A stretch of 64,000 nucleotides of DNA, taken from NCBI RefSeq assembly GCF_900109575.1, contig NZ_FOAF01000002.1, positions 310,001 through 374,000 on the forward strand. Direction: 5' to 3'. This document shows, piece after piece, positions 878 through 42,421 of the stretch. The notes beneath the pieces were generated by a model. It was not told the origin of the DNA, did no database searches, and worked only from the letters and a program-made list of their open reading frames with translations. Origin of the DNA: Olivibacter domesticus (GTDB lineage Bacteria; Bacteroidota; Bacteroidia; Sphingobacteriales; Sphingobacteriaceae). Position 1 is the stretch's first letter, and the number at the start of each line of letters is the position of its first letter. The position numbers were made by a program, and so were the translations under genes.

Positions 878-2761
878 ATGATAAAAATTTTTACCATTAG
901 TGCATGTATACTCTATACCGGCTTTCAGAGTGTCGGACAAACAATATCTGCTGATCAGTCAACAGCTATTGACACCACGTATAAACCTTTAAATGAGGTA
1001 ATTATTAACGAAAACAGACTGCAAACGCCTTTTACCGAGCAAAACAGAAATATCAATATTATTTCCCGTGAGCAGATCAATGCGCTACCTGCTCGTTCAG
1101 TAAACGAACTGCTCACCTACGTTGCTGGTGTTGACGTACGTCAACGTGGCCCTTGGGGAGCCCAGGCAGACATTAGCATTGATGGGGGTACTTTCGAGCA
1201 AACAACTATCTTGGTGAATGGTATCAAAGTAAATGATCCTCAAACTGCTCATCATTCTATGAATATTCCTGTGCCGCTGGGTGCAATTGAGCGTATTGAA
1301 ATAATCAAGGGTCCTGCTGCCCGTATTTATGGTGTGAATAGCTTAACAGGCGCTATTAACATTATTACGCGCACACCTGCCAATGATAATTTTCAGGTAT
1401 CTGTGAATGCGGCGTCTAGCCTCAAATCAAAGGAAAATGGAAAAGGTATCTACAATGCGCGCGGCATTCAAATTGGAAAGGGCTTTGCCAATGCCCATTC
1501 CAACCATCTACTATATGGTGGCCATGAATCTGGCAATGGTTACAGATATAACACCCCTTTTAACAACAACAAACTATTCTACCAAGGCAATATAGTAACA
1601 GATAAAACAGGCTTATGGAGTTTTATGGCCGGTTATACGTTCAATGATTTTGGAGCAAATGGATATTATGCAGCGCCGAACGATAAGGAGTCTAAAGAAA
1701 TTGTCCAAACGGGTATCTTTTCCGTTGGGTACAAAAAGCAGTTATCGAAATGGAGCATCAGTCCACGTATCAGTTACCGCTACAACCATGACGATTATCG
1801 CTACAACCAATATGATTTAAGCTTATTTCGTAATCTTCATCATTCGCATGTTATCAATACCGAAGTTAACTCAACCTATAAAAGCGCCTACGGATCGATT
1901 GGCCTTGGGCTGGAAATGCGCAATGAATTTCTCCTAAGTACTAATATGGGGGATAGGGATAGAAGTAATTATGGCTTCTATGCAGAATATAAAACAGATC
2001 TTATCAAAAGGTTGTCACTTAATATGGGTGCTTATTTAAACTATAATAGCCGTTTTGGTTGGCAGGTTTATCCAGGTTTAGATATAGGTTATAACGTATT
2101 GGGTAACTGGAAAATATATGTAAACACAGGGTCTGGGCAACGCATACCTTCTTTTACTGATCTGTATACTACGGGTGGAGGAAATGTTGGCAATCCCAAT
2201 TTAAAAGCCGAGAACGCCTGGTATGCCGAAGGCGGAATAAAATATAACGACGAAAAATGGTTTTTGAACGCCAGTTATTTCTATCGGAGAATAAATGATT
2301 TTATTGATTGGACAAGGCCGTCCACCAATGAAAGCTGGCAGGCAAATAATTTCATGCGCAATCAAGTTCAAGGGCTTAGTCTCACAACACAGTATAAAAT
2401 AAATACAGAACAGGAATACCATTGGTTGGCTGGCGTTTCGTATACTTATTTAAATCCAAAAGTAACGAATGCTTCGTCGGAAAGTATGTTGTCTAAATAT
2501 GCCATCGAGAGCTTAAAACATCAACTTATAGGACATCTAATATTCCGTACTGATAACTTCTCGATCAGTGCAGCTCAACGCTTCGTAGAGCGAATAAGCT
2601 ACAAAAATTATTTTTTAACGGATTTAAAGTTCGGCTATAAATGGAAAAATTATGGTGTGAATTTAGATGCAAACAATCTTTTTGATGTTACATACATTGA
2701 AGCAGCTGCTATACCCCTACCTGGAAGGTGGTTTAATGTAGGCATTAACTGTTCCATATAA
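878..2761 (+). CDS. TonB-dependent outer-membrane receptor (BtuB-like size)
   Basis: A 627-residue outer-membrane receptor with a signal peptide (about 1-20, ending near GQT), a TonB-plug domain (about residues 40-160, with LPARSVNELLTYVAGVDV and IERIEIIKGPAARIYG) and a 22-strand-type beta-barrel. It lacks the CarboxypepD_reg-like N-terminal extension and the SusC signature, so it belongs with siderophore/cobalamin/metal receptors rather than glycan importers. The length is close to that of BtuB, but no cobalamin riboswitch is visible in the 78-base upstream gap, so the substrate stays open. It ends in a bidirectional hairpin terminator shared with the convergent isomerase gene. Confidence 0.85.
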   Translation: MIKIFTISACILYTGFQSVGQTISADQSTAIDTTYKPLNEVIINENRLQTPFTEQNRNINIISREQINALPARSVNELLTYVAGVDVRQRGPWGAQADISIDGGTFEQTTILVNGIKVNDPQTAHHSMNIPVPLGAIERIEIIKGPAARIYGVNSLTGAINIITRTPANDNFQVSVNAASSLKSKENGKGIYNARGIQIGKGFANAHSNHLLYGGHESGNGYRYNTPFNNNKLFYQGNIVTDKTGLWSFMAGYTFNDFGANGYYAAPNDKESKEIVQTGIFSVGYKKQLSKWSISPRISYRYNHDDYRYNQYDLSLFRNLHHSHVINTEVNSTYKSAYGSIGLGLEMRNEFLLSTNMGDRDRSNYGFYAEYKTDLIKRLSLNMGAYLNYNSRFGWQVYPGLDIGYNVLGNWKIYVNTGSGQRIPSFTDLYTTGGGNVGNPNLKAENAWYAEGGIKYNDEKWFLNASYFYRRINDFIDWTRPSTNESWQANNFMRNQVQGLSLTTQYKINTEQEYHWLAGVSYTYLNPKVTNASSESMLSKYAIESLKHQLIGHLIFRTDNFSISAAQRFVERISYKNYFLTDLKFGYKWKNYGVNLDANNLFDVTYIEAAAIPLPGRWFNVGINCSI

Positions 2762-2763
2762 AT

Positions 2764-2804
2764 AAAAACGGCAGCAATTGATTGATTTAATTGCTGCCGT
2801 TTTT
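2764..2804. terminator. Bidirectional intrinsic terminator
   Basis: A 16-bp perfect stem (AAAAACGGCAGCAATT at 2764-2779 and its complement at 2789-2804) with a 9-base loop. The A-rich and T-rich ends give a U-tract in either direction, fitting its place between two convergent genes. Confidence 0.9.
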
Positions 2805-2814
2805 ATTATTAAGT

Positions 2815-3867
2815 TTACAACCCTAATATTGCTTTATTTAATTGCTCATCAACACCCGATGAAGCAAAATCATCAAAGGTCTTATCCGTTACCCGTATGA
2901 TATGATCTTTAATAAAAATTGCTCCTTCTTTCGCACCATCCTCCGGATGTTTTAAGGCACATTCCCATTCCATTACGGCCCATCCTTTAAAATCATAAGC
3001 AGTTAACTTACTGAATACAGATTTAAAATCTACCTGTCCATCACCTAAAGATCGAAACCTACCAGCTCGCTCTACCCAACCTTGATAACCTCCATATACT
3101 CCTTGCTTTCCTGATGGGTTAAATTCAGCATCCTTCACATGAAACATTCTTATTCGCTCATGATAATGGTCAATATATGCTAGGTAATCCAAGCATTGTA
3201 ACACAAAATGAGAGGGATCATAAAGCAAACAAGCTCTTTGATGATTATTTACCTTTTCAAGGAACATTTCATAGCTAATACCATCATGTAAATCCTCACC
3301 TGGATGAATCTCATAACATACATCTACCCCTACTTCATCGAAAGCATCTAAAATTGGGAGCCACCTGTTTGCCAGTTCTTTAAAACCATCGTCAACCAGT
3401 CCTGCGGGGCGTTGTGGCCACGGGTATACGGTGTGCCAAAGTAAGGAGCCGCTGAAAGTAGCATGCGCATCTAAGCCCAAATGCTGGGACGCCCTAGCAG
3501 CATATTTTAATTGTTGTACAGCCCATTCCGTTCTTGCCTTTGGATTGTTATGATAGGCTTCTGGTGCAAAACCATCAAACAATTTATCATAGGCAGGGTT
3601 AACAGCAATTAACTGGCCTTGTAAATGTGTAGAAAGTTCCGTTATTTCCAGTCCGTGACTATTCACGATGCCTTTTATTTCGTCGGCATACGTTTTACTT
3701 TCAGCTGCTTTTTGCAAATCAAAATAAGATGTCGCCCATGTAGGTATCTGTACCCCTTTAAAGCCTAATCCTTTAGCCCATCCACAGATGGCATCCAAGC
3801 TGTTAAAGGGTGCCGTATCACCCAAGAATTGTGCAAGAAATATTCCTGGTCCTTTTAGTGTTCTCAT
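2815..3867 (-). CDS. Cytoplasmic sugar phosphate isomerase/epimerase-like TIM barrel
   Basis: A 350-residue xylose-isomerase-like TIM-barrel protein (AP_endonuc_2 family). Candidate metal ligands sit in CYEIHPGED, LLYDPSHF, FHVKDAEF and VMEWE, the usual Glu/Asp/His/Glu pattern. Unlike the two paralogs at 9987-10928 and 23889-24791 it has no signal peptide, so it should act in the cytoplasm, on a sugar released by the neighbouring DUF1080/oxidoreductase genes (inference). A strong terminator at 3966-3998 separates it from the upstream DUF1080 gene, so it needs its own promoter in 3868-3965; no TAnnTTTG box is clear there. The exact substrate cannot be assigned. Confidence 0.85.
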   Translation of the reverse strand: MRTLKGPGIFLAQFLGDTAPFNSLDAICGWAKGLGFKGVQIPTWATSYFDLQKAAESKTYADEIKGIVNSHGLEITELSTHLQGQLIAVNPAYDKLFDGFAPEAYHNNPKARTEWAVQQLKYAARASQHLGLDAHATFSGSLLWHTVYPWPQRPAGLVDDGFKELANRWLPILDAFDEVGVDVCYEIHPGEDLHDGISYEMFLEKVNNHQRACLLYDPSHFVLQCLDYLAYIDHYHERIRMFHVKDAEFNPSGKQGVYGGYQGWVERAGRFRSLGDGQVDFKSVFSKLTAYDFKGWAVMEWECALKHPEDGAKEGAIFIKDHIIRVTDKTFDDFASSGVDEQLNKAILGL

Positions 3868-29863: not shown

Positions 29864-32800
29864 TTAAAAGCCAACATTTAAACCAATAATAAATTGTCTT
29901 GACACCGGATAAATTCCTCGATCTACTCCTAGCACTGGAAAGGTACTATCCTCTTGACTTATTTCTGGATCCAACCCCGTATAGTCGGTTATGGTAAATA
30001 GATTTGTAGCGCCTAAATAAACACGCATCTTGGATATTGCTTTGCCAAATAACTGTTCTGTAGGAAAACTATAACCAATCTGAAGATTTTTCATTCTGAA
30101 GAAACTACCATCCTGTACATAATAACTGGAAGAAGCATATTCAAAATCAGATGCACCACGGTAAAGGGAAGGAATCATACTACCGGTATTGGTTGGACTC
30201 CAAGCATCCAACAATCTCGTGCTTAATGCACCATCAAAAGTGGTAAAATCAGTAAAATAACGAGTAGCTTCATATAGGTCGTTTCCTTGCGAACCATTAA
30301 AGAACATCGCTATATCAAAATTCTTGTACGAAGCATTTAGGCTTAGTGAATAAATGAAGTCTGGATGTGGATTTCCGATGACCGTTCTGTCTTCGGGTCC
30401 GATTGATCCGTTACCATCTATATCAGCATATTTAAGTCCACCAACACGTGCATTGGTATAAGTTGGCGAATTGGCTAGATCTTCTTCGCTTTGATAAATA
30501 CCAGCTACCTGATAACCATAGAACGAACCAAACGGTTCACCGGCTTTCAGTACCGTAGTGCTTATACTTCTGAAATTACCATAAATTTGCTGTGCAACTC
30601 CTGGAGCTAGGCGGACTACTTTATTCACATTTCGCGAAATGTTTACACCGACGTCAAACTTAAATGGCTTGTTGTCTTCTCTTCCATAATGATAACCAAG
30701 CGTTAGCTCGATACCTTTATTCTGCATATCACCAATATTCACAAAAGGCGAGGCGCCTCTCCCTACAGAAACCGACGGCAAAGGCACCGGATAAAGCATA
30801 TCGCTTGTTTTCTTGTTATACCAATCAAAAGTACCATCGAATTTACCATTTAACAAGGTAAAATCCAGACCAATGTTTAGTGAATTTACCTCTTCCCATT
30901 TTACCGCTTCGTTCTTGAATGCATTCTGCCGAACACCTGTTACCAATCCGCTTCCATCAACTATTGGATAGGATGACGACGCTAAAGATGACTGTAAACG
31001 ATCTAGGTATTGAAAAGCAGGAATTCGCTGGTTACCGGTGATACCATATCCTGCTCTAATTTTTAAGTCGGTTAGCCACTCAGTGCCTTGCATGAACTCT
31101 TCTTGGGATAACCGCCAAGCTACACTTCCAGCGGGGAACACACCATATTGATTTTCTGATCCAAAATTGGAAGAACCATCACGGCGAACGGTTGCGCTTA
31201 ATAGGTAACGATCTTTAAAGGAATAGTCAGCTTTTCCAAAGATGGAAAATAAAGATCCTACAACTCCCGTACTAGCATTTGTGATATTGCTCGTTCCTGG
31301 ATTCAAATAATAATAATCTAGATTACCAAGGATAAAATAACCGTTTCTTCCACCATCTAATTGCCTCTCCCTACTACGTATGGCTTCAGTACCCACTAAT
31401 ACATTTAAATTATGTTCTTCATTAAAGTTTTTCTTGTAATTCAAGGTATTGGTCCATGTCCACTCTGTTCTATAACCCTGATTTTCTCTTATTCCATTCG
31501 CATTACTTCCTTCTGAGAATTCTAGGTTAGGATAGATAATTTCGATGCCATTATAATTTTCATAGCGTATACCGAAGCTGGTACGCGCAGTCAAACCTTC
31601 AATCACATCCACTTCTCCGAAGATATTACCAAGGAAAAAGTTGCTTTTATTCTTATTGTCCTTCGCACGATAGAGCATTGCTAACGGGTTCTGAGCATTT
31701 CCTAAAGCGCCTCCTTTTGATCCTGCAAAATTGCCCATGATATCATATACCGGGATGATAGTGGGTATACGGTAAGCAAATCCCAAAGCACTACCCTCAT
31801 CCTGATAGGTTCCGGGTGTATTTACGTTACTTCCAAAACCATAATTTTCGGAATAGCTGTATTGCGCATTCTCGCCAAAACGAAACTTGTTATTGAAAGC
31901 TGAAATCTGTGTGTTTGACCGGAAGTTGAACCGATCAAAACCAGTATGCTTAATAGTACCTTTTTGACCGAAATAACCTGCAGACATGGCGTAGGTAGCA
32001 TTTTCACCTCCACCAGTTGCTCCTAATTGATACGATTGCAGGGGTGCGTTTTCGGTGATCTCATCAAACCAATTGGTTCCTGCTTGATTGGCCTTTGTAA
32101 TTTGATAAAAGGTGCTATTATCCCGTGTATAGTTATAAAGACTAGGATCTGCATCCGCAGCGGTTACATCCAATCCAACTTTCGATCCCGCCAACAAGTA
32201 TTCAGGTAACACAGGAGTTGCCCCGCTTCCATATAACCTGGTAAAGGAAGAACCCGGATCAGCGCCCGCATTTTGAAAAGACCGCAATAAATTCTCCGCA
32301 TATTGCGCCGGATTCATCATTTCTGGAAAAGCTCCGTTTCGCGGACGTTGTGAACCATAGTATGCATCCAATGTTATATTCGGTTTTCCAACGGTTCCTT
32401 TTTTAGTTGTCACAATAACAACACCATTATTTGCCCGCGATCCATATATAGACGCTGCAGAAGCATCTTTTAGGACTTGCATACTCTCAATATCAGCCTG
32501 ATTCAGCCAACTTAATTTTCCTTCATAAGGCACTCCGTCAATCACATATAGAGGGTCATTATTATTAATCGTACTATAACCTCTGATACGGATCTGAGGG
32601 GTTGAAGCAGGAGCACCATCGCTGATGATCTGCACACCAGTTGCCTTTCCCTGCAAGGCCTCAACAGCACTAGCAGCTGGCTGGCTTTTTAACTGTCCAA
32701 TATCGACTACCGCCACAGCTCCTGTTAAATCCTTTTTCCGTTGAGAGGAATAGCCTGTTACTACTACTTCTTCCAAATCACTCGTGGTTGCATTCAGACT

Positions 32801-33379
32801 TACGTTGTAAGTTGTTTGCCCACTTGATACCCGTACCTCCTGAGTTGTATAGCCAATATAGGAAATTACCAAAATGTCGTTTGTCTTTACATTTAGGGTA
32901 AACTGACCTTGGTTATCTGTTAAAATACCATTGCTACTTCCTTTCACTAATACGCTTACGCCTGGCAAGGGTGAATTATCTGTAGCATCCGTAATTTTAC
33001 CAACTATCTTCAATTCCTGACGGTTCTGGATAAGTAAAATTTTATCATTTTCAACCTTATAGCTAATATCAATAGGCGCTAACACTTCATCTAAAACATT
33101 TTCTAGATTACTTTCTAAAACCCCTACTTCTACCATCCTATGGGTTTTTAATAAAGAAGGACTATAAACAAACTTCGCCTGAGCTTGCGTTTCTAGACTC
33201 TCAAGGAAATTTCTTAAGGTCATTTTCTTCTTTGTGATGCTTATCGTTTTTTTCAGTGCTCCCTGCGCCTCTGCAGTATGTGCGTACGTAGTTAAGGTAC
33301 CTACTGAGATGAGTAAAGCATGAATAAAAGTTATTCTCATCGCTGTTTTTGTTAGAGCAATAATTCGTTCTTTTTTCAT
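29864..33379 (-). CDS. SusC/RagA transporter with STN signalling domain
   Basis: A 1171-residue TonB-linked transporter: signal peptide (to about residue 38), STN domain (about 50-120, LRNFLESLETQAQAKFVYSPS), CarboxypepD_reg-like domain (about 128-205), plug (IRIRGYSTINNNDPLYVIDGVP, SMQVLKDASAASIYGSRANNG) and barrel ending IIGLNVGF. The body is closely similar to the SusC at 12691-15963 (shared runs such as IPVYDIMGNFA and FYQI-AN-AGT), but this copy carries STN and a sigma/FecR pair while the other has neither. Confidence 0.95.
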   Translation of the reverse strand: MKKERIIALTKTAMRITFIHALLISVGTLTTYAHTAEAQGALKKTISITKKKMTLRNFLESLETQAQAKFVYSPSLLKTHRMVEVGVLESNLENVLDEVLAPIDISYKVENDKILLIQNRQELKIVGKITDATDNSPLPGVSVLVKGSSNGILTDNQGQFTLNVKTNDILVISYIGYTTQEVRVSSGQTTYNVSLNATTSDLEEVVVTGYSSQRKKDLTGAVAVVDIGQLKSQPAASAVEALQGKATGVQIISDGAPASTPQIRIRGYSTINNNDPLYVIDGVPYEGKLSWLNQADIESMQVLKDASAASIYGSRANNGVVIVTTKKGTVGKPNITLDAYYGSQRPRNGAFPEMMNPAQYAENLLRSFQNAGADPGSSFTRLYGSGATPVLPEYLLAGSKVGLDVTAADADPSLYNYTRDNSTFYQITKANQAGTNWFDEITENAPLQSYQLGATGGGENATYAMSAGYFGQKGTIKHTGFDRFNFRSNTQISAFNNKFRFGENAQYSYSENYGFGSNVNTPGTYQDEGSALGFAYRIPTIIPVYDIMGNFAGSKGGALGNAQNPLAMLYRAKDNKNKSNFFLGNIFGEVDVIEGLTARTSFGIRYENYNGIEIIYPNLEFSEGSNANGIRENQGYRTEWTWTNTLNYKKNFNEEHNLNVLVGTEAIRSRERQLDGGRNGYFILGNLDYYYLNPGTSNITNASTGVVGSLFSIFGKADYSFKDRYLLSATVRRDGSSNFGSENQYGVFPAGSVAWRLSQEEFMQGTEWLTDLKIRAGYGITGNQRIPAFQYLDRLQSSLASSSYPIVDGSGLVTGVRQNAFKNEAVKWEEVNSLNIGLDFTLLNGKFDGTFDWYNKKTSDMLYPVPLPSVSVGRGASPFVNIGDMQNKGIELTLGYHYGREDNKPFKFDVGVNISRNVNKVVRLAPGVAQQIYGNFRSISTTVLKAGEPFGSFYGYQVAGIYQSEEDLANSPTYTNARVGGLKYADIDGNGSIGPEDRTVIGNPHPDFIYSLSLNASYKNFDIAMFFNGSQGNDLYEATRYFTDFTTFDGALSTRLLDAWSPTNTGSMIPSLYRGASDFEYASSSYYVQDGSFFRMKNLQIGYSFPTEQLFGKAISKMRVYLGATNLFTITDYTGLDPEISQEDSTFPVLGVDRGIYPVSRQFIIGLNVGF

Positions 33380-33405
33380 AAATTCGAAAAATTTTGGTTG
33401 GTGAA

Positions 33406-33475
33406 AGGTCAGCTAATCGGCTGACCTCTAATCATGATTTAATCTCCGACCGGCAATACCCCCATATTGTCGGTC
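33406..33475 (-). promoter_or_regulatory. Two hairpins between fecR-like and susC genes
   Basis: GACCGGCAATA (33448-33458) pairs with TATTGTCGGTC (33465-33475), and AGGTCAGC (33406-33413) with GCTGACCT (33420-33427). On the minus strand neither is followed by a U-tract. They lie in the 166-base gap between the anti-sigma gene and susC, as does the hairpin at 21792-21818 in the other cassette. Confidence 0.5.
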
Positions 33476-33545
33476 TTTTTGTTGGTGAGTTTAAGTTGTA
33501 TTCATAAGCATGTAAATTAAATTTGGTTAAATAATTGGTTAAAAT

Positions 33546-34571
33546 TTATTGGATAATAATACCTTTTCCTTCTATTTTATATTTAGTATCTGTTACATTA
33601 CAGATCATTCCTAATTGATTAAACAGTTCCAGATTACTGAGATCACCGGTGAAGGTGGTGTGTTTAACTTTAGGATCAACTTTGATAGGAATTCCATAGA
33701 TTTCACTTAGTTTTTCTGCTAGCTGAGGCAAACTGATTTCATTAAAACTTACATCATTTAGCAAGGTGCGTTTCGTTTCAATGGGTATAGGTTTTTCTGC
33801 TAATGTTTCGCTAAACGTATTTTGACGTTCATCTAAGACGACACGTTGATTAACGGTAAGATTTACCATCGCTGGATTTTCAACAATACGCTCCACAAGA
33901 TTTTTCTTTTTGCCTGAACGGATTACCTGCACTTTCCCAGAATATACTGTCACCTGATCAGTACCTGAACTACTCCCTGCAGTGATCTTAAAACAGGTCC
34001 CCAATACTTTCGTAATCATCTCATCATGAAATACCATAAATGGATTTTCCGGATTCGCTCTTACGTTAAACAATGCATCGCCACGTAAAGCAACCTCTCT
34101 TTTATTAAACCTTGTCGCATAGCTTACTTCTGCACCTTTAAATAATTTCACGTTAGACGAATCCGGTAAGGTAATTTCTAATGGTTCATCAGAAGAATTG
34201 CTTACAATTGTTATTTTTTGGGCACTGGCTCTGGTAAACTCAGGGTCAATAAGATAGGCGTCTAACCGCCATTTTACCCATATTGTGCCAATTAATAGAA
34301 AGATGATTGCCGCAGCGATGGATAGGTATCTGCTTCTCCTGGTGTTAATGCGATTTGCCAGGTCTTTTTTTTTGCCATCCTCATAATTGGTTTCTTCATT
34401 GATTTTATCCCATAAACGGACTTCTAGCTCTTCAAAATCCGCATCCTTTAATGCAAGATCTTGTTCGCTATCAAGCAGATCATACCATCGACGCACTATT
34501 TCTTGTTCTTCTGGAGAACATTTACCTTTTAAATATCGCTCTAATAGATTGTGAAATGCCTTGCGACTCAT
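33546..34571 (-). CDS. FecR-family anti-sigma factor
   Basis: A 341-residue anti-sigma factor: cytoplasmic sigma-binding region (1-80), one transmembrane helix (about 80-100, YLSIAAAIIFLLIGTIWVKW), a periplasmic FecR domain (about 120-235, PDSSNVKLFKGAEVSYATRFNKREVALRGDALFNV) and a C-terminal DUF4974 domain (about 270-341). It pairs with the sigma factor at 34874-35455 and the STN-SusC at 29864-33379. The 302-base gap from the sigma gene is longer than usual and is filled with repeats. Confidence 0.93.
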   Translation of the reverse strand: MSRKAFHNLLERYLKGKCSPEEQEIVRRWYDLLDSEQDLALKDADFEELEVRLWDKINEETNYEDGKKKDLANRINTRRSRYLSIAAAIIFLLIGTIWVKWRLDAYLIDPEFTRASAQKITIVSNSSDEPLEITLPDSSNVKLFKGAEVSYATRFNKREVALRGDALFNVRANPENPFMVFHDEMITKVLGTCFKITAGSSSGTDQVTVYSGKVQVIRSGKKKNLVERIVENPAMVNLTVNQRVVLDERQNTFSETLAEKPIPIETKRTLLNDVSFNEISLPQLAEKLSEIYGIPIKVDPKVKHTTFTGDLSNLELFNQLGMICNVTDTKYKIEGKGIIIQ

Positions 34572-34739
34572 AAAAATGGTTTTACAATTAGTGAAAGGTC
34601 TTTCGAATGCCTTTCATAATTAATAGTAAAACAACTAGCCCCAATCCCTAAGATTTTTTTTATTTTTTTTTGAAAGTAATTAAAGGAAAGCGCTGTTTAG
34701 TAATGAGTGATGATCTATGAGTAATGAATTTTAGCGCAG

Positions 34740-34873
34740 AGCGAAGTAGAAACCTTCATTCTGATTGTCATCGACCTCAATGAAATGGAGAGATCTCAAG
34801 CTTTGCTGAACGAATAACTAACAACGAATAACTAACAACGAATAACTAGCAACTAACAACAAATAACTAGCAA
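34740..34873. repeat. Repeat-rich intergenic segment with a tandem 14-mer array
   Basis: Units AACGAATAACTAAC (34809-34822), the same again (34823-34836), AACGAATAACTAGC (34837-34850), a half unit (34851-34857) and AACAAATAACTAGC (34858-34871). Before it, 34765-34800 looks like a degenerate copy of the widespread GTCAT..GA..GATCT dispersed bacterial repeat. The array runs up to the last codons of the sigma gene. The remaining 34572-34739 shows no gene. Confidence 0.7.
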
Positions 34874-35455
34874 CTAGTAACCAATCGCCAATAACATCAC
34901 AACAACAATCATATAATCTTTTAAGGCTATTCGCATAGCTTTTAATGATTGTGTAATATGGTATTCAACTGCTTTTTCGGATATTTTAAGAACTTGCGAA
35001 ATTTCTTTAACAGAACGGTATTCCATCCGGCTTAAAACAAATACTTCCCGTGTTTTACGTGGCAGCATTTCAATACCTTTTTCTATAGAAATCGATAAAT
35101 CTCGTGCTGCTAATTGTTCTTCTAGGTTATTACAACCAATATCAATACGTTGCTGTTGGTAATCGATATAATGATCAAATTGCAGCAAGGTTTTAAGGTG
35201 GTTAATGAAAGAATATCGAACAGCGGAAAGTAGATAAGAAGATAAATGAGTAATCTGTACAACAGCTCTTCTCTCCCATAATGATACAAATACGCGCTGG
35301 GTCAGCTCCTCTGCTAACTCTTTACTTCCTGACTTACGGAATAATTGTAAATAACACACTTTCCAATACCTTTTATAAATCTCTTTGAAAGCTTCGTGGT
35401 TATTTTCTTTTATTTTAATTAATAATTCAGCATCAGTAAAGTCACAATAGGCCAT
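34874..35455 (-). CDS. ECF RNA polymerase sigma factor
   Basis: A 193-residue ECF sigma factor with region 2 (FKEIYKRYWKVCYLQLFRK...ELTQRVFVSLWERR, about 18-60) and region 4 (LPRKTREVFVLSRMEYRSVKEISQVLKISEKAVEYHITQSLKAM, about 127-170). A hydrophobic C-terminal tail (MIVVVMLLAIGY) follows, a trait often seen in Bacteroidota ECF factors. The last four codons fall in the intergenic repeat array, so the tail may have been reshaped by it. A good promoter lies upstream. Expected targets are the fecR/susC/susD genes that follow. Confidence 0.92.
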   Translation of the reverse strand: MAYCDFTDAELLIKIKENNHEAFKEIYKRYWKVCYLQLFRKSGSKELAEELTQRVFVSLWERRAVVQITHLSSYLLSAVRYSFINHLKTLLQFDHYIDYQQQRIDIGCNNLEEQLAARDLSISIEKGIEMLPRKTREVFVLSRMEYRSVKEISQVLKISEKAVEYHITQSLKAMRIALKDYMIVVVMLLAIGY

Positions 35456-35570: not shown

Positions 35571-37478
35571 CTAAACCCCATACTTCTCATTAATAAATTT
35601 TATTTTCCCAGTGTCTACAAGGTTTCGGATAAGTGTTATCCGCTCTTTTTCATTACCATTCTGTAATCTTTCTACCAATTCGTCCAGTCTGAGTGGTTCA
35701 ATGGCTAAAAGATTATTAATCTCTATAATTAACTTATCTTCAAGCTCCTCTTGTTTTGTCTTTTTATTGCTCCGTAAACAATAATCACATATTTCACAGT
35801 GTTTACTATTCTTTTCTCCAAAATAATAAAGCAGCTTTTGCGATCGACAGCCATCTCCCTTTAAATAGTTCAAAACAGCCTTTAACTGTTCTTCACCAAT
35901 TGCTTTTCTACTTTCGATATGCTGTCTATTGATGTTCAAGTGCTGGGAGTCACTCCGAGCTTGCAAAAATTGCAATTGTGGTTTATCCGTTTGGGGCAAA
36001 TAGGTGATTATTTGATAACGTTGCAATTCTTCCAAACGCTTAGTCACTTCACTGATTGGAAGGTTGGCTTTTTTTGCTAGATCTGATTCTCTAAAAGGCA
36101 CAAAATAGTCAAATGCACCACCATACGCTCTCAAAATAGTCTTAATAAATCCGTCAAGATTTGCATGTGCTACTTGAAAACTATATAAATCCTGTGAGTT
36201 AACGTCAAATCTAAGTCGGGAAGGAATGTATACATTCTCGCTAACGACCAGCCATTCATCTCTTTCCAAAAACTTTAAGGCACTTATCGTTTTCAAAGGC
36301 TCTAATTGATAACGATTGCAAAAATCACCTAGATCAAAATCAAAGCTGAGGTATTGACCTGCACCGTACGCTAATTGAAAATAGTTTCCCAGATGATAAT
36401 AAATCTGCACAATCTCTTTTACTGTTGGGAAACTCAACTCAAAGTTCTTTTGCAAGCGAGATTTATCTGCCTCATTATAAAGTAAAACAGCGTAAGATTT
36501 CTTTTCGTCGCGTCCCGCTCTACCGGCTTCCTGATAGTAGGCTTCCAACGTATCTGGTATATCTAAATGAACCACAAATCGCACATCTGCTTTATCGATT
36601 CCCATACCAAAAGCATTCGTGGCAACCATCACTTGCAATTCATTTTTCTTCCAGGCCTCTTGTTTTTTTGCTCTTTCGGGTGTTGAAAGTCCAGCATGAT
36701 AAAAATTTGCACTTATACCTGCTGCTATTAAAAACCTTGCAATCTCCTGCGTTTCCTTCCTATTCCTCACGTACACAATACCACTTCCACCGGTATTACG
36801 TATGATGTTGACTAACCGTCTCGTTTTATGCTCCTCTTCCAAGGCCATATAAGCTAGATTATCTCTTACAAAGCTCTTTACAAAGACAGCCCTGCTTCCA
36901 TCAGGTTTAGCTTTAAAGAGTAGTTTTTCCTGGATATCTAAGATAACTTTTTCAGTCGCCGTAGCAGTAAGCGCTAAAAAGGGTACCTCTGCGTGAAGGT
37001 CGCGTAGCTCAGCCAAATGTAGGTATGGAGGTCTAAAATCATAACCCCACTGCGAAATACAATGCGCCTCGTCGACCGCAAAAAGATTAACCTTCATATA
37101 GCGAATACGCTCCCGCACCAGCTCGCTCATTAGTCTTTCCGGTGAAAGATAAAGGAATTTTATCTTGCCATAAACACAATTGTCTAAACAGATATCAACC
37201 TCTCGCTTGCTCATCCCTGCAAATATCGCTACTGCTTCAATGCCTTTTGAACGCAAATTTTCTACCTGATCTTTCATCAATGCGATCAATGGTGTAACCA
37301 CAATACAGATGCCTTCTTTTGCAAGTGCCGGAACTTGAAAACAAATGGACTTTCCTCCACCCGTTGGCATTAAAGCGAGCGTATCATTTCCTTCGAGCAC
37401 GTGATTGATCACCTCCTCTTGTAAAGGCCTGAAATGTGGATAACGCCAATATTGTTGGAGTATTTCGTGAATAGACAT
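35571..37478 (-). CDS. recQ: RecQ family ATP-dependent DNA helicase
   Basis: A 635-residue superfamily 2 3'-5' DNA helicase. Walker A is MPTGGGKS (37-44), the DEAH box lies in FAVDEAHCISQWGYDFRP (about 133-150), and motif VI is in YQEAGRAGRDEKKS. A zinc-binding cysteine cluster (HCEICDYC, near 565) and a degenerate RQC-like C-terminus follow. The ATG at 37478 (MSIHEIL) is preferred over 37505, which would add nine residues and overlap comEC. It starts 11 bases after comEC ends and so looks like part of that cluster. Confidence 0.93.
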   Translation of the reverse strand: MSIHEILQQYWRYPHFRPLQEEVINHVLEGNDTLALMPTGGGKSICFQVPALAKEGICIVVTPLIALMKDQVENLRSKGIEAVAIFAGMSKREVDICLDNCVYGKIKFLYLSPERLMSELVRERIRYMKVNLFAVDEAHCISQWGYDFRPPYLHLAELRDLHAEVPFLALTATATEKVILDIQEKLLFKAKPDGSRAVFVKSFVRDNLAYMALEEEHKTRRLVNIIRNTGGSGIVYVRNRKETQEIARFLIAAGISANFYHAGLSTPERAKKQEAWKKNELQVMVATNAFGMGIDKADVRFVVHLDIPDTLEAYYQEAGRAGRDEKKSYAVLLYNEADKSRLQKNFELSFPTVKEIVQIYYHLGNYFQLAYGAGQYLSFDFDLGDFCNRYQLEPLKTISALKFLERDEWLVVSENVYIPSRLRFDVNSQDLYSFQVAHANLDGFIKTILRAYGGAFDYFVPFRESDLAKKANLPISEVTKRLEELQRYQIITYLPQTDKPQLQFLQARSDSQHLNINRQHIESRKAIGEEQLKAVLNYLKGDGCRSQKLLYYFGEKNSKHCEICDYCLRSNKKTKQEELEDKLIIEINNLLAIEPLRLDELVERLQNGNEKERITLIRNLVDTGKIKFINEKYGV

Positions 37479-37489
37479 TAGATTAACCC

Positions 37490-39595
37490 TTAATAAGCAT
37501 TCCAAACATAAGCAAAATTATCTTTTAGGATGTAAACTTGTATTCCTATTCGCTGAGCTTCTTCACAAAACCTTTCGATGGTTTTTTCATGATTAGAGCC
37601 ATCTAAAATCAATAACATCTCTTTCTTTATATTTCCGATCATTTCGGTTATCCTTCCTTGCGGATTATTTCTTATTAGAAGCCATTGAGGTGCATTGAAT
37701 CGGTACGGATTCGCTTTCTTTCCATCTGCTATTAGGAGATTGTGTTTTTTAAATTCAATAGTGCTCTCATGAATATGAATATCTTTATAACGGAAGATTT
37801 TATCGCTTTTTATCTCCTTCAGTTTGCTGATATCTGTATTCGCCTCAACGCTTGGAATCACCGAATATTGAATGGACTTATCCGAAATATCCAAATCACT
37901 ATAAATAAACGCTTTGTACTGATGAATAAGCCCTATAGCCAGGTTCTTTCGCATATTGAAAATAATTAGTTGATCTGTTCTTTGTTTTGTAAAGAAACGG
38001 CAGTTATAAAGAACGCATAATATAAAGAACGAAATTATTGACAGGTAGAGGACCTTTTTATGAGCGTATCGGCAGGCTATTATAAAAAAGAACATGAATA
38101 GGTAAATCAACAAACACTGGTAAAGAGTGATCCAAACACGGTTTATGGTCGATCCGGGCAAACGCTCAACGGCAAGCAGTCCCTTATTTACCAACAGGAT
38201 AAACTGTTCCAGGTAATGGGCTATCTTTTCGCTTATCGGATGAATTGGAAGCATCAGCAAAAAAAAACCCACATATATGATAATACTAACGGGAATCATA
38301 ATAAACAGATTAGCAGGGAGGAAATAAACGGGAAAAAGATGAAAATAATACAGCACCAGCGGGAACGTCGTTAATTGTGCAGAACAGGACAATATGATAC
38401 TATTATATATTTTGTTTAACATCGAATTAGAAAACTTCCATAATTTATTCAACATGGGCATGATCCATATAATGCCTATCACGGCTAAATAGGATAATTG
38501 AAAACCGATTTCAGCTAGGTATTTTGGATTGTATAAAAGCAAAAAAAATGCCGATGCAGCGATGTTGTTGGCTGTATTACGCTGTCTACTGAAGGTGTTG
38601 GCAATCATCACAAAGCTTATCATAATTGCTGCTCGTAAAACAGAGGCAGAAAAACCCGTAAGTAACGCAAAAATCCATATCGAAACGAAGAGAATCATGA
38701 AACGTAACATGCGTAGGTTCTTTGTATTCATCCAGCTTAAACCAATAGAAAGAAAGAGAAACACGATGCCTACATGCATTCCGGATACGGCTAGCACATG
38801 AATAGTGCCTGTTGTTGAAAATGCCTTTATAAGGGTTTGATCAAGATCAGCCCTGTAGCCTAATACAAGCGCAGAAACAATCGCTTTTGCATCTTTATTC
38901 TTAAAATATCTATTAAATTTATTGACCATCCGCTCTCTTGCAAGAAACGCATAGCGTACGAGGTAATTTCCCCTAGTTCTCCCTGTTTTTTTCCACTCAT
39001 GGTTATGCAAATACTGCTGATGCCATATATTTTTATTCGCTAAGTAAGCCTGGTAGTCAAATTCATGTGGATTGTAGGGAGCTGAAATCTTTTCAACGGC
39101 ACTTTTCAACACCAACTCGTCTCCATAGCTTATATGCAAATTCGTCGTATTTTTTATCCTTAATAGTAATTTCCCATTTGCCGCTATTACCTTCCCACTG
39201 TTTTCTTTGGCGCCGGTAACGCGAAATTCAGCCAACAAAAAGGAAGAAGTAACTTTTGGCTGATTTGCAATGAAACCATATAAGTAGGTTGTTGAATACC
39301 GACTAAAATGTCTATTGTTTACGGATGGATGACTTTCCCAGGTTAATACCCAAGCAACAAGCGACAGCATATAAATAAACAGCAAACCAAAAATTGGAAA
39401 TATACGATGATTTTTCTGCCTGCTGATTACGGATAAACCTATGAAGAAAAATACGCCGAGAAAGAGCAAAATAGAGAGAACACGATAGAGAAGAAGTGAT
39501 ATAGGAATAACATAGGCAAGTGTTATTCCTATAAGTAAAGCAATAACAAAATAAACAAATGGAATTCTTCCAAAATGCAAAGGGGAATCATTCAT
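37490..39595 (-). CDS. comEC: ComEC/Rec2-family DNA uptake channel
   Basis: A protein of about 701 residues: an N-terminal DUF4131-type membrane region (about 10-75), an OB-like periplasmic part (about 90-190), and the polytopic competence domain (about 225-520) with the signature ALVLGYRADLDQ...IHVLAVSGMHVGIVF. The C-terminal 170 residues lack the HxHxDH metallo-beta-lactamase motif of many ComEC proteins. ComEC moves single-stranded DNA across the inner membrane. The ATG at 39595 overlaps the HhH gene's TAA by one base, so translation is coupled. Confidence 0.9.
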   Translation of the reverse strand: MNDSPLHFGRIPFVYFVIALLIGITLAYVIPISLLLYRVLSILLFLGVFFFIGLSVISRQKNHRIFPIFGLLFIYMLSLVAWVLTWESHPSVNNRHFSRYSTTYLYGFIANQPKVTSSFLLAEFRVTGAKENSGKVIAANGKLLLRIKNTTNLHISYGDELVLKSAVEKISAPYNPHEFDYQAYLANKNIWHQQYLHNHEWKKTGRTRGNYLVRYAFLARERMVNKFNRYFKNKDAKAIVSALVLGYRADLDQTLIKAFSTTGTIHVLAVSGMHVGIVFLFLSIGLSWMNTKNLRMLRFMILFVSIWIFALLTGFSASVLRAAIMISFVMIANTFSRQRNTANNIAASAFFLLLYNPKYLAEIGFQLSYLAVIGIIWIMPMLNKLWKFSNSMLNKIYNSIILSCSAQLTTFPLVLYYFHLFPVYFLPANLFIMIPVSIIIYVGFFLLMLPIHPISEKIAHYLEQFILLVNKGLLAVERLPGSTINRVWITLYQCLLIYLFMFFFIIACRYAHKKVLYLSIISFFILCVLYNCRFFTKQRTDQLIIFNMRKNLAIGLIHQYKAFIYSDLDISDKSIQYSVIPSVEANTDISKLKEIKSDKIFRYKDIHIHESTIEFKKHNLLIADGKKANPYRFNAPQWLLIRNNPQGRITEMIGNIKKEMLLILDGSNHEKTIERFCEEAQRIGIQVYILKDNFAYVWNAY

Positions 39596-41628
39596 TAGAA
39601 CTGGCACCTCATTTGTAATTTCAGTTCAGATTTATACTTTCCGTCAATTCGCTCCAGTCCGGTGCCGATCTGATTAAGGTCTGGATAGATGAAGGATGCA
39701 TATCGACACCATAAATCTACCCCGCGTTTAAGCTTGTAACGTATATTGGCATAATAGCGAGCCCCTTTATTGCTATAAAAGGGAAAGGATGAAGCATATA
39801 ACACATCGTTTTCATAAGCATAAATTCTGGTATTGAATCCTGAGGTATTAAATAAAGCTAAACGGAAGTTTCCCGAAACTTTTCCCTTTAAAGGTTTATA
39901 TATTATATCTTGGTATAACATTACCCCTCTTTCTTTTTTATCGTGCTTGGCATAATGCGTAAATTCAGCACGATGGCGTAGCGCCAATGACGCATGAATT
40001 TTATGCTGCAGTTCTATCCTAATTTGCTGGCGCTTCACTTCTTGCAATACATGAGAAGTTATTATACTATCATCATTTTCAGATTTTTTACGATAACGGT
40101 ATCGAGCCAGGACCTTGGTATGGCGATTAGGTGAAAAAGTGAACTGAGAGAATAAGTCTAAACCATCTGATGGTGCATCTACACGATATTTTAGCCAGGG
40201 GAACTTAAAATAGTCACCATAGGTCACAATCTGTAGCTTTCTATTTGGCTGAAAGATTAAGCCGCTATAAAAACCATGTTCATTTTCAACATTACTACCT
40301 TCGGCCAGGGCCTGGTTAAAAAAGGAATGATAATCTTTTTGATAATTTCGCTGGTGAAGAACCAATGATAACTCATGAGATAGGGTAGCGATCATTCCAT
40401 TTGTATAGGCAATACCACTTCCAATGCTATGTGCCAATTCACCGAATAAGTACATATTTGCCAGATTATAATTATAATAAACGGTCGTATTCTGTAAATA
40501 ATCACCACTAAATTTATACTTGTTGTATAGCAAAGGTCTTGGCAATAACAAACCATCAAATTGAGTTTGATAGTAAGATCCGCCAAGTGTTAAACCATTT
40601 CTTTGGGATTGTATATTGGCTCCCCATACAAGCTGACCTAAGCTATGTCTGTTAGCAATTTCAGTAGGTGTTCTATGCAAGCCGCTTTCGAGTAACGAAC
40701 CATATATATGTTTGCCTTCTTCGTCACCCTGAAGAGAAGCACTTAGTTTACGATAAGAAAAAAAAGGAGTGACAGCAATATTTTTTATCATATAGGTGGC
40801 AGCTACCCCCCTAAAAAATAAAAACTCATTTGTGGAAGTATAAGGCCTTAAACCTATCCCCTGCCGAGCTACATGTTGAACCAATGCACCTTTTCCGAAA
40901 CTTAGGCCAGTCCATAAGGCCAAACCCTGACCAAACTGAAGGGAATAATCGCCGATTACCAATTGTTTCAAACGCTTTTGGTCTTTTACGTAAAGACTTC
41001 CGGAATAGAAGTCAAATCCGTAGCGTTGAGCACCGGAAAAGAAGGGTTCACCGGCGTCTTTTTCCATATTGAAAGAAAACTGTACATGCTGTTTTAACTG
41101 ATAGCGATAACGTACGAACAAACGATCAGGGCCGCCCAAGTACCTCGACCTTGTTGTGTCTGTAATACGATAGCCTTGCTGACGTTGAAGGATGCGAGCG
41201 TGCCGCAAGAGTAAATCATGTTTGCCTTCATTTAAGCTTAAGCCCTTCAAGGAAGATTTTTCATCAACTTTCACAAAGTGCAACAACAAGCGAGCAATCT
41301 CCAAATCCAAGCCTTCAACAGCTTGTAGCTCATTAACCGCCAAATAATCGCCACTTGTTTTTCGATGCTGAATGATACTGGCAATCTGAAGGGGTGAAAG
41401 AAATTGCAATTCACGTAGGTCTCTTCCGTCAGTTTTATTCAGATTGATTGGATGCTGCTGATAGAAGCTGAGTTTTTCCATTAGTTCCGTGTAATCCGTA
41501 TCCTCCGCTAATTCGTCAATCATCGATTCCACCAATTGCTCAATAAGTTGATCATTCACTTCCTGTGCGGAAATGCAGAATCTTAGTAATAGAAAAAAGA
41601 CAACTAATAAAATAAATCTAAAAGGCAT
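39595..41628 (-). CDS. Helix-hairpin-helix (ComEA-like) protein fused to an outer-membrane beta-barrel
   Basis: A 677-residue exported protein: signal peptide (1-21), acidic helix (22-50), tandem helix-hairpin-helix motifs (about 55-118: LNKTDGRDLRELQFLSPLQ, ELQAVEGLDLEIARLLLHF), then about 540 residues of alternating beta-strands with many Tyr/Arg and a terminal phenylalanine (KLQMRCQF), typical of an outer-membrane barrel. HhH motifs of this type bind DNA in ComEA. It lies directly upstream of and coupled to comEC and overlaps the preceding small outer-membrane gene by 11 bases. A role in DNA uptake across the outer membrane is inferred, not shown. Confidence 0.8.
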   Translation of the reverse strand: MPFRFILLVVFFLLLRFCISAQEVNDQLIEQLVESMIDELAEDTDYTELMEKLSFYQQHPINLNKTDGRDLRELQFLSPLQIASIIQHRKTSGDYLAVNELQAVEGLDLEIARLLLHFVKVDEKSSLKGLSLNEGKHDLLLRHARILQRQQGYRITDTTRSRYLGGPDRLFVRYRYQLKQHVQFSFNMEKDAGEPFFSGAQRYGFDFYSGSLYVKDQKRLKQLVIGDYSLQFGQGLALWTGLSFGKGALVQHVARQGIGLRPYTSTNEFLFFRGVAATYMIKNIAVTPFFSYRKLSASLQGDEEGKHIYGSLLESGLHRTPTEIANRHSLGQLVWGANIQSQRNGLTLGGSYYQTQFDGLLLPRPLLYNKYKFSGDYLQNTTVYYNYNLANMYLFGELAHSIGSGIAYTNGMIATLSHELSLVLHQRNYQKDYHSFFNQALAEGSNVENEHGFYSGLIFQPNRKLQIVTYGDYFKFPWLKYRVDAPSDGLDLFSQFTFSPNRHTKVLARYRYRKKSENDDSIITSHVLQEVKRQQIRIELQHKIHASLALRHRAEFTHYAKHDKKERGVMLYQDIIYKPLKGKVSGNFRLALFNTSGFNTRIYAYENDVLYASSFPFYSNKGARYYANIRYKLKRGVDLWCRYASFIYPDLNQIGTGLERIDGKYKSELKLQMRCQF

Positions 41629-42421
41629 AGGCGAGAAACATTTGTGGCGACAATCCTAATCTTGGATGTATAACAGTGGCCATATCGAGTAGCAGGTTAT
41701 TATAGAAAACGCCGAAACCACAAAACCTTTTTAAATCACGTATAGACAAACCTCCCCGAAAACTGAGCCAAGTGATCGGCCTGTATTCTAGCCCTGATCT
41801 TGCATCTACTCCCTTTGTGTTCCAGATTTGTTCGAAATCTGCTGTTACAAGCAAGTTTGTATGAACATTGTAACTCGTTCCAACCCTCAAATGCGTGGGG
41901 ATGATCGCATTAACGGTACGATCATAGGCGGTACGACCTAGATTAGCCCAGTGTGCCCCTATAAGCCAATAGGTTGTTATCAAATACTGTATACCTATAT
42001 CTACAGAATAAGCTTCGCTTCCGCCATACTTATCAATACGCAATTGATGATAATTAAGGGTTAAGGAGGTAGAAAAACACCTTCCAAATGGGCGGGCATA
42101 GGTCGCCCCCAATTTAAGGTCTCCGTAAGTTCCCGTAATGCCGTAACTTGATAAGTGCATGCCAAAAACGCCATATCTAGTAGGCAACGCAAAGAGGCCA
42201 CCCTGCGTACTAATGTCTGTATTTAATAGATGTTCTTGATAATAAAGGCCCGCTTGCGGCTTTTCTAAAGTTGTTATTCCCGCAGGATTACTGCTAAGTG
42301 CCGCTGCCCCCCGTAGCGCTGTTCCTGTATTACCCATACCACTAAATCGGGCAACTGGGTTTACCTGAGCGAATAAGGATGAGGAAAAAAATAATAATAA
42401 GGTTATAAGTTTAAGTAGCAT
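41618..42421 (-). CDS. PorV/PorQ-like outer-membrane beta-barrel protein
   Basis: A 267-residue protein with a Sec signal (MLLKLITLLLFFSSSLFAQ) and the opening VARFSGMGNTGTALRGAAALSSNPAGI, characteristic of PorV/PorQ and UPF0164 barrels of the FadL superfamily. It ends in a terminal phenylalanine (FLAYAF), as outer-membrane proteins do. PorV/PorQ proteins serve type IX secretion, but no other T9SS genes are here; the context is HhH-barrel/comEC/recQ. It may be a partner of the HhH barrel protein. Its 3' end overlaps that gene by 11 bases. Confidence 0.72.
   Translation of the reverse strand: MLLKLITLLLFFSSSLFAQVNPVARFSGMGNTGTALRGAAALSSNPAGITTLEKPQAGLYYQEHLLNTDISTQGGLFALPTRYGVFGMHLSSYGITGTYGDLKLGATYARPFGRCFSTSLTLNYHQLRIDKYGGSEAYSVDIGIQYLITTYWLIGAHWANLGRTAYDRTVNAIIPTHLRVGTSYNVHTNLLVTADFEQIWNTKGVDARSGLEYRPITWLSFRGGLSIRDLKRFCGFGVFYNNLLLDMATVIHPRLGLSPQMFLAYAF

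Follow-up and report, generated by a model that had tools for sequence, protein, structure and literature searches.

We propose, with a probability of roughly one half, that the PorV-like and HhH-barrel genes preceding comEC in Olivibacter domesticus encode an outer-membrane DNA-uptake module for natural transformation, an alternative to the type found in Riemerella. The new observation is that the HhH-barrel avoids relatives of RA0C_RS04915/RS04920, the outer-membrane pair of Riemerella. The barrel is a concrete candidate for an outer-membrane DNA port in Bacteroidota and, if the proposal holds, would be needed for transformation in species without the Riemerella-type pair.

The genes lie in a window of 64,000 nucleotides, the whole stretch of DNA that was analysed, for which a preliminary description had listed a four-gene cluster with overlapping genes. 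The minus strand carries all four genes, PorV-like first, then HhH-barrel, comEC and recQ, with the junctions as described (Table 1): the PorV-like and HhH-barrel genes overlap by 11 bases (ATGCCTTTTAG), the HhH-barrel and comEC genes meet at TAATG, and a gap of 11 bases (GGGTTAATCTA) separates the comEC stop from the recQ ATG. The suggestion that the cluster is a possible DNA-uptake module survived in part: it gained from the predicted barrel, the linkage to comEC and dprA and the exclusion against the Riemerella pair, and lost its elements of HhH DNA binding and RecQ linkage. Adjoining recQ on the minus strand (29864-35455 of the window) are genes for an ECF sigma factor, an anti-sigma-like protein and a SusC-like receptor, which form a separate, ordinary regulatory set.

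Table 1. Location of the cluster genes in the window and of the separate ComEA-like gene in the Olivibacter domesticus genome
Feature	Position	Strand	Basis or remark
PorV-like, PorV/FadL-type 14-strand outer-membrane barrel (predicted), 267 aa	41618..42421	-	AF2, Foldseek, NCBIfam
HhH-barrel, 677 aa	39595..41628	-	Alignments A1/A2, AF2, Foldseek, FimD alignment
ComEC (DUF4131 + Competence), 701 aa counted from ATG	37490..39595	-	Pfam
RecQ-family helicase	35571..37478	-	Pfam, NCBIfam
Three-HhH ComEA-like gene	G000:C7:124634-125515		Outside the cluster

The 677-aa protein comprises a signal peptide (residues ~1-21, called from the sequence and the model only), an acidic helical HhH domain (~26-117) and a barrel (135-677). 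An AF2 model built on a 43-sequence alignment predicted ~24 antiparallel strands for the barrel domain (pLDDT 84.6, pTM 0.82), and the last residue is Phe; the protein thus combines the predicted signal peptide, antiparallel barrel and aromatic C-terminus of an outer-membrane beta-barrel, as had been surmised from its sequence. Foldseek and VIA-align placed the model among outer-membrane barrels, the best Foldseek match being 6r2q_B, a chain of the Mtr complex (E 1.8e-13), and the usher FimD superposed over ~365 residues at ~4 A. Similarity to the FimD/PapC ushers and to MtrB (6r2q_B) lies in a barrel with a similar number of strands, but identity is ~10%, the N-terminal domains are unrelated and the overall shape alone is in common; this modelled shape would indicate a barrel of about that size and says nothing on function. 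A comparison of the barrel profile with PDB sequences returned HhH matches only, for example ComE operon protein 1, and no solved barrel relative by sequence; no relatives of the barrel were found in viral contigs, and a literature search found no paper describing the HhH-barrel family. Among the 43 sequences the barrel domain is basic (net charge +10 to +34), and the alignment has highly conserved charged residues throughout the large barrel.

The N-terminal domain matches PF12836 (HHH_3) at residues 58-108 with an E value of 1.5e-5, just below the Pfam cut-off. The match recurs in 21/21 aligned relatives, and the profile of the domain also aligns with the final HhH of a distinct ComEA-like protein (probability 93%). 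These matches favour the view of the preliminary description that the barrel carries ComEA-like DNA-binding motifs and binds DNA at the outer membrane, as a ComEA fused to the port, which we nevertheless consider improbable. An HhH domain is indeed present, but the canonical GhG hairpins are not, being replaced by F-L-S and G-F-D, and the DNA-contacting glycines are substituted in nearly all orthologs (residue 76 is F in 37/43, residue 78 S in 32/43 and residue 108 D in 39/43). The domain is moreover acidic in 43/43 sequences, with net charges between -6 and -16, and a separate three-HhH protein was found in all of the 76 Bacteroidia tested. Because the hairpin glycines are lost and the domain is acidic, a role as plug or docking piece appears likelier than DNA binding.

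The separate ComEA-like protein differs from the HhH-barrel in having three HhH repeats, an N-terminal membrane anchor, a canonical GIG middle hairpin and no barrel, and it is related to it through its last HhH, the clear profile match given above. Its build corresponds to that of RA0C_RS02645, which is essential for transformation in Riemerella (PMC8459023). In several genomes of family f25 the three-HhH gene adjoins rpoB or lies within ~3 kb of it (L301 2105-3061; G089, G338).

The 267-aa protein was modelled as a 14-strand barrel with an N-terminal hatch (AF2 pLDDT 93.0), the fold of PorV and FadL. Its best Foldseek match was 8gl6_F, a chain of the type IX secretion system (T9SS) complex (query TM-score 0.79, E 1.8e-9), followed by FadL/TbuX, with FadL/TodX also ranking high. 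It scored 62 bits against NCBIfam PorV_fam, under the cut-off of 90, and 24.1 of 250 bits against the T9SS PorV equivalog NF033710. The combination of a large barrel and a partner of FadL/PorV fold recalls the T9SS SprA-PorV translocon, although the partner misses the PorV equivalog cut-off. SprA is far larger than the 677-aa barrel, and PorV is longer than its 267-aa partner.

By hand count, about 212 genomes out of 296 from Bacteroidota have homologs of the barrel (E < 1e-20); they include most of those sampled outside the class Bacteroidia and many within it. A set of 80 related loci, drawn almost entirely from the family of the window with a filter that missed at least one BLAST-visible copy, has the barrel directly before comEC in 70 cases, an order that exceeds chance, and a PorV-like gene upstream of the barrel in at least 49. 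Nearly all relatives within that family show the same operon-like order of barrel and comEC. Only this one family has the linkage to comEC, and in other families and classes the pair is also kept without that gene. In family f25, dprA lies within ~5-10 kb of the pair in four genomes out of six (G089, G144, G338, G344), and in three of these (G089, G338, G144) the pair is divergent from folD-queE-640aa-dprA. The neighbourhood of the pair in most lineages showed no competence gene. Orthologs of the barrel are absent from many ComEC-bearing genomes, and it is therefore not a universal competence gene. One copy (G373, L296 ~970-2910, plus strand) runs from its start through 14 TGA codons in frame, with neither TAA nor TAG before the TAG that lies near codon 696 of the stretch read; in-frame TGA is absent from the rpoB part of that genome, and the TGAs of the barrel gene would represent decay or recoding.

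The pair could instead be a device for protein export or surface assembly like the SprA-PorV translocon, in which case its linkage to comEC would be an incidental fusion of operons within a single family. The T9SS chain as best match of the PorV-like protein, the usher-like size of the barrel and the greater age and breadth of the pair relative to the comEC linkage fit such a role. We regard it as unlikely, since the pair is linked to competence genes in two separate ways (comEC and dprA), no conserved substrate gene was seen beside it and it shows mutual exclusion with an outer-membrane pair essential for transformation.

That pair consists of RA0C_RS04915 (PF13620) and RA0C_RS04920 (PF18942), deletion of which abolishes transformation of Riemerella anatipestifer (PMC8459023); no known component of a pilus or secretin is among the transformation genes found in Riemerella. 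The same pair of domains can be recognised across many Bacteroidia, where a DUF5689 gene comes after that for a barrel of ~850-980 aa. Both sets consist of two outer-membrane genes in comEC-bearing Bacteroidota and appear to fill the same slot, but the Riemerella-type set differs in its barrel family, its CarboxypepD_reg/Plug N-terminus, its DUF5689 partner and its Exo_endo_phos_3 nuclease neighbour. The pair of the window falls outside the Riemerella-type module (A4 family), with an hhalign probability of 1% for barrel against barrel, and the DUF5689 gene of O. domesticus itself adjoins a SusC/SusD-like pair, not a Riemerella-type barrel. In most of the loci read (L168-L176, L179, L181, L188), the Riemerella-type barrel gene has an Exo_endo_phos_3 (PF19580) gene as its neighbour; this neighbour may encode a secreted nuclease partner, which the available part of PMC8459023 does not name.

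The two sets rarely co-occur. In the class Bacteroidia (n=76), 25 genomes had the window type only, 41 the Riemerella type only, six both and four neither; the corresponding numbers for family f25 (n=96) were 38, 41, three and 14 (Fisher p 1.7e-11). Genomes carrying both modules number eight. Families f22 and f26, presumed kin of R. anatipestifer, carry the Riemerella-type pair without the window-type barrel. A correlated-evolution test in f25 favoured dependent over independent gain and loss (LR 23.4, 4 df, p 1e-4) on a quick rpoB tree with many weak branches, from which one long-branch row was dropped. Owing to this tree, to the clustering of the labels on it and to the few pairs available to independent-pairs tests on rpoB trees, the exclusion is good but not conclusive support.

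Clustering on the tree would also be expected if the pair were an outer-membrane transporter of nutrients or small molecules and the exclusion came from lifestyle or lineage, not from a common function, a reading to which the high rank of FadL/TodX for the small barrel lends itself. We give it little credence, given the strong conservation of charged residues along the large barrel, the linkage to both comEC and dprA and a dependence that stays significant after correction for the tree.

ComEC and DprA were present in 76/76 class Bacteroidia genomes, whichever outer-membrane module they carried. Four genomes (G018, G265, G312, G185) carry neither module although ComEC, DprA and the three-HhH protein are all present; these and possible protein export like that by SprA-PorV are the main weaknesses of the DNA-entry reading. 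Two of them (G265 and G312; L182, L183), from one genus of the window's family, have a comEC locus without PorV-like, barrel or Riemerella-type genes.

In the DNA-uptake model, the large barrel would be the port through which DNA crosses the outer membrane inwards, and the small FadL/PorV-type barrel its partner. On the periplasmic side, the acidic HhH domain may act as a plug or docking piece, either giving way to DNA or passing it on. DNA would next meet the membrane-anchored three-HhH ComEA-like protein, enter through ComEC and be received by DprA. The pair would then do the job of RA0C_RS04915/RS04920, lineages mostly carrying one or the other. More tentatively, Bacteroidota may possess two unrelated, interchangeable non-secretin outer-membrane DNA ports, the Riemerella-type pair and a basic barrel with an acidic HhH plug and a PorV-type partner.

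ComEC of the window matched PF03772 with 188 bits (cut-off 23) and DUF4131 with 85 bits. As had been noted beforehand, it lacks the metallo-beta-lactamase motif: scanning found no Lactamase_B match and no HxHxD. Its profile alignment covered no more than the beginning of the lactamase region and lacked GQGD, so that its C-terminal lactamase-like region is, as judged from sequence, degenerate or truncated; ComEC of other classes has a full C-terminal lactamase domain. Since DUF4131 + Competence is listed as the main ComEC type in Bacteroidetes (PMC6299819), the lactamase-less form is an ordinary state there, and the motif is not required for membership. RecQ matched DEAD, Helicase_C and RecQ_Zn_bind. 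Its place as a core component was marked down, as recQ directly follows comEC in only 20/80 related loci, a patchy adjacency within part of the window's family. In a different family (G055, L189 8123-11833), recQ lies directly upstream of comEC, the opposite order to that of the window.
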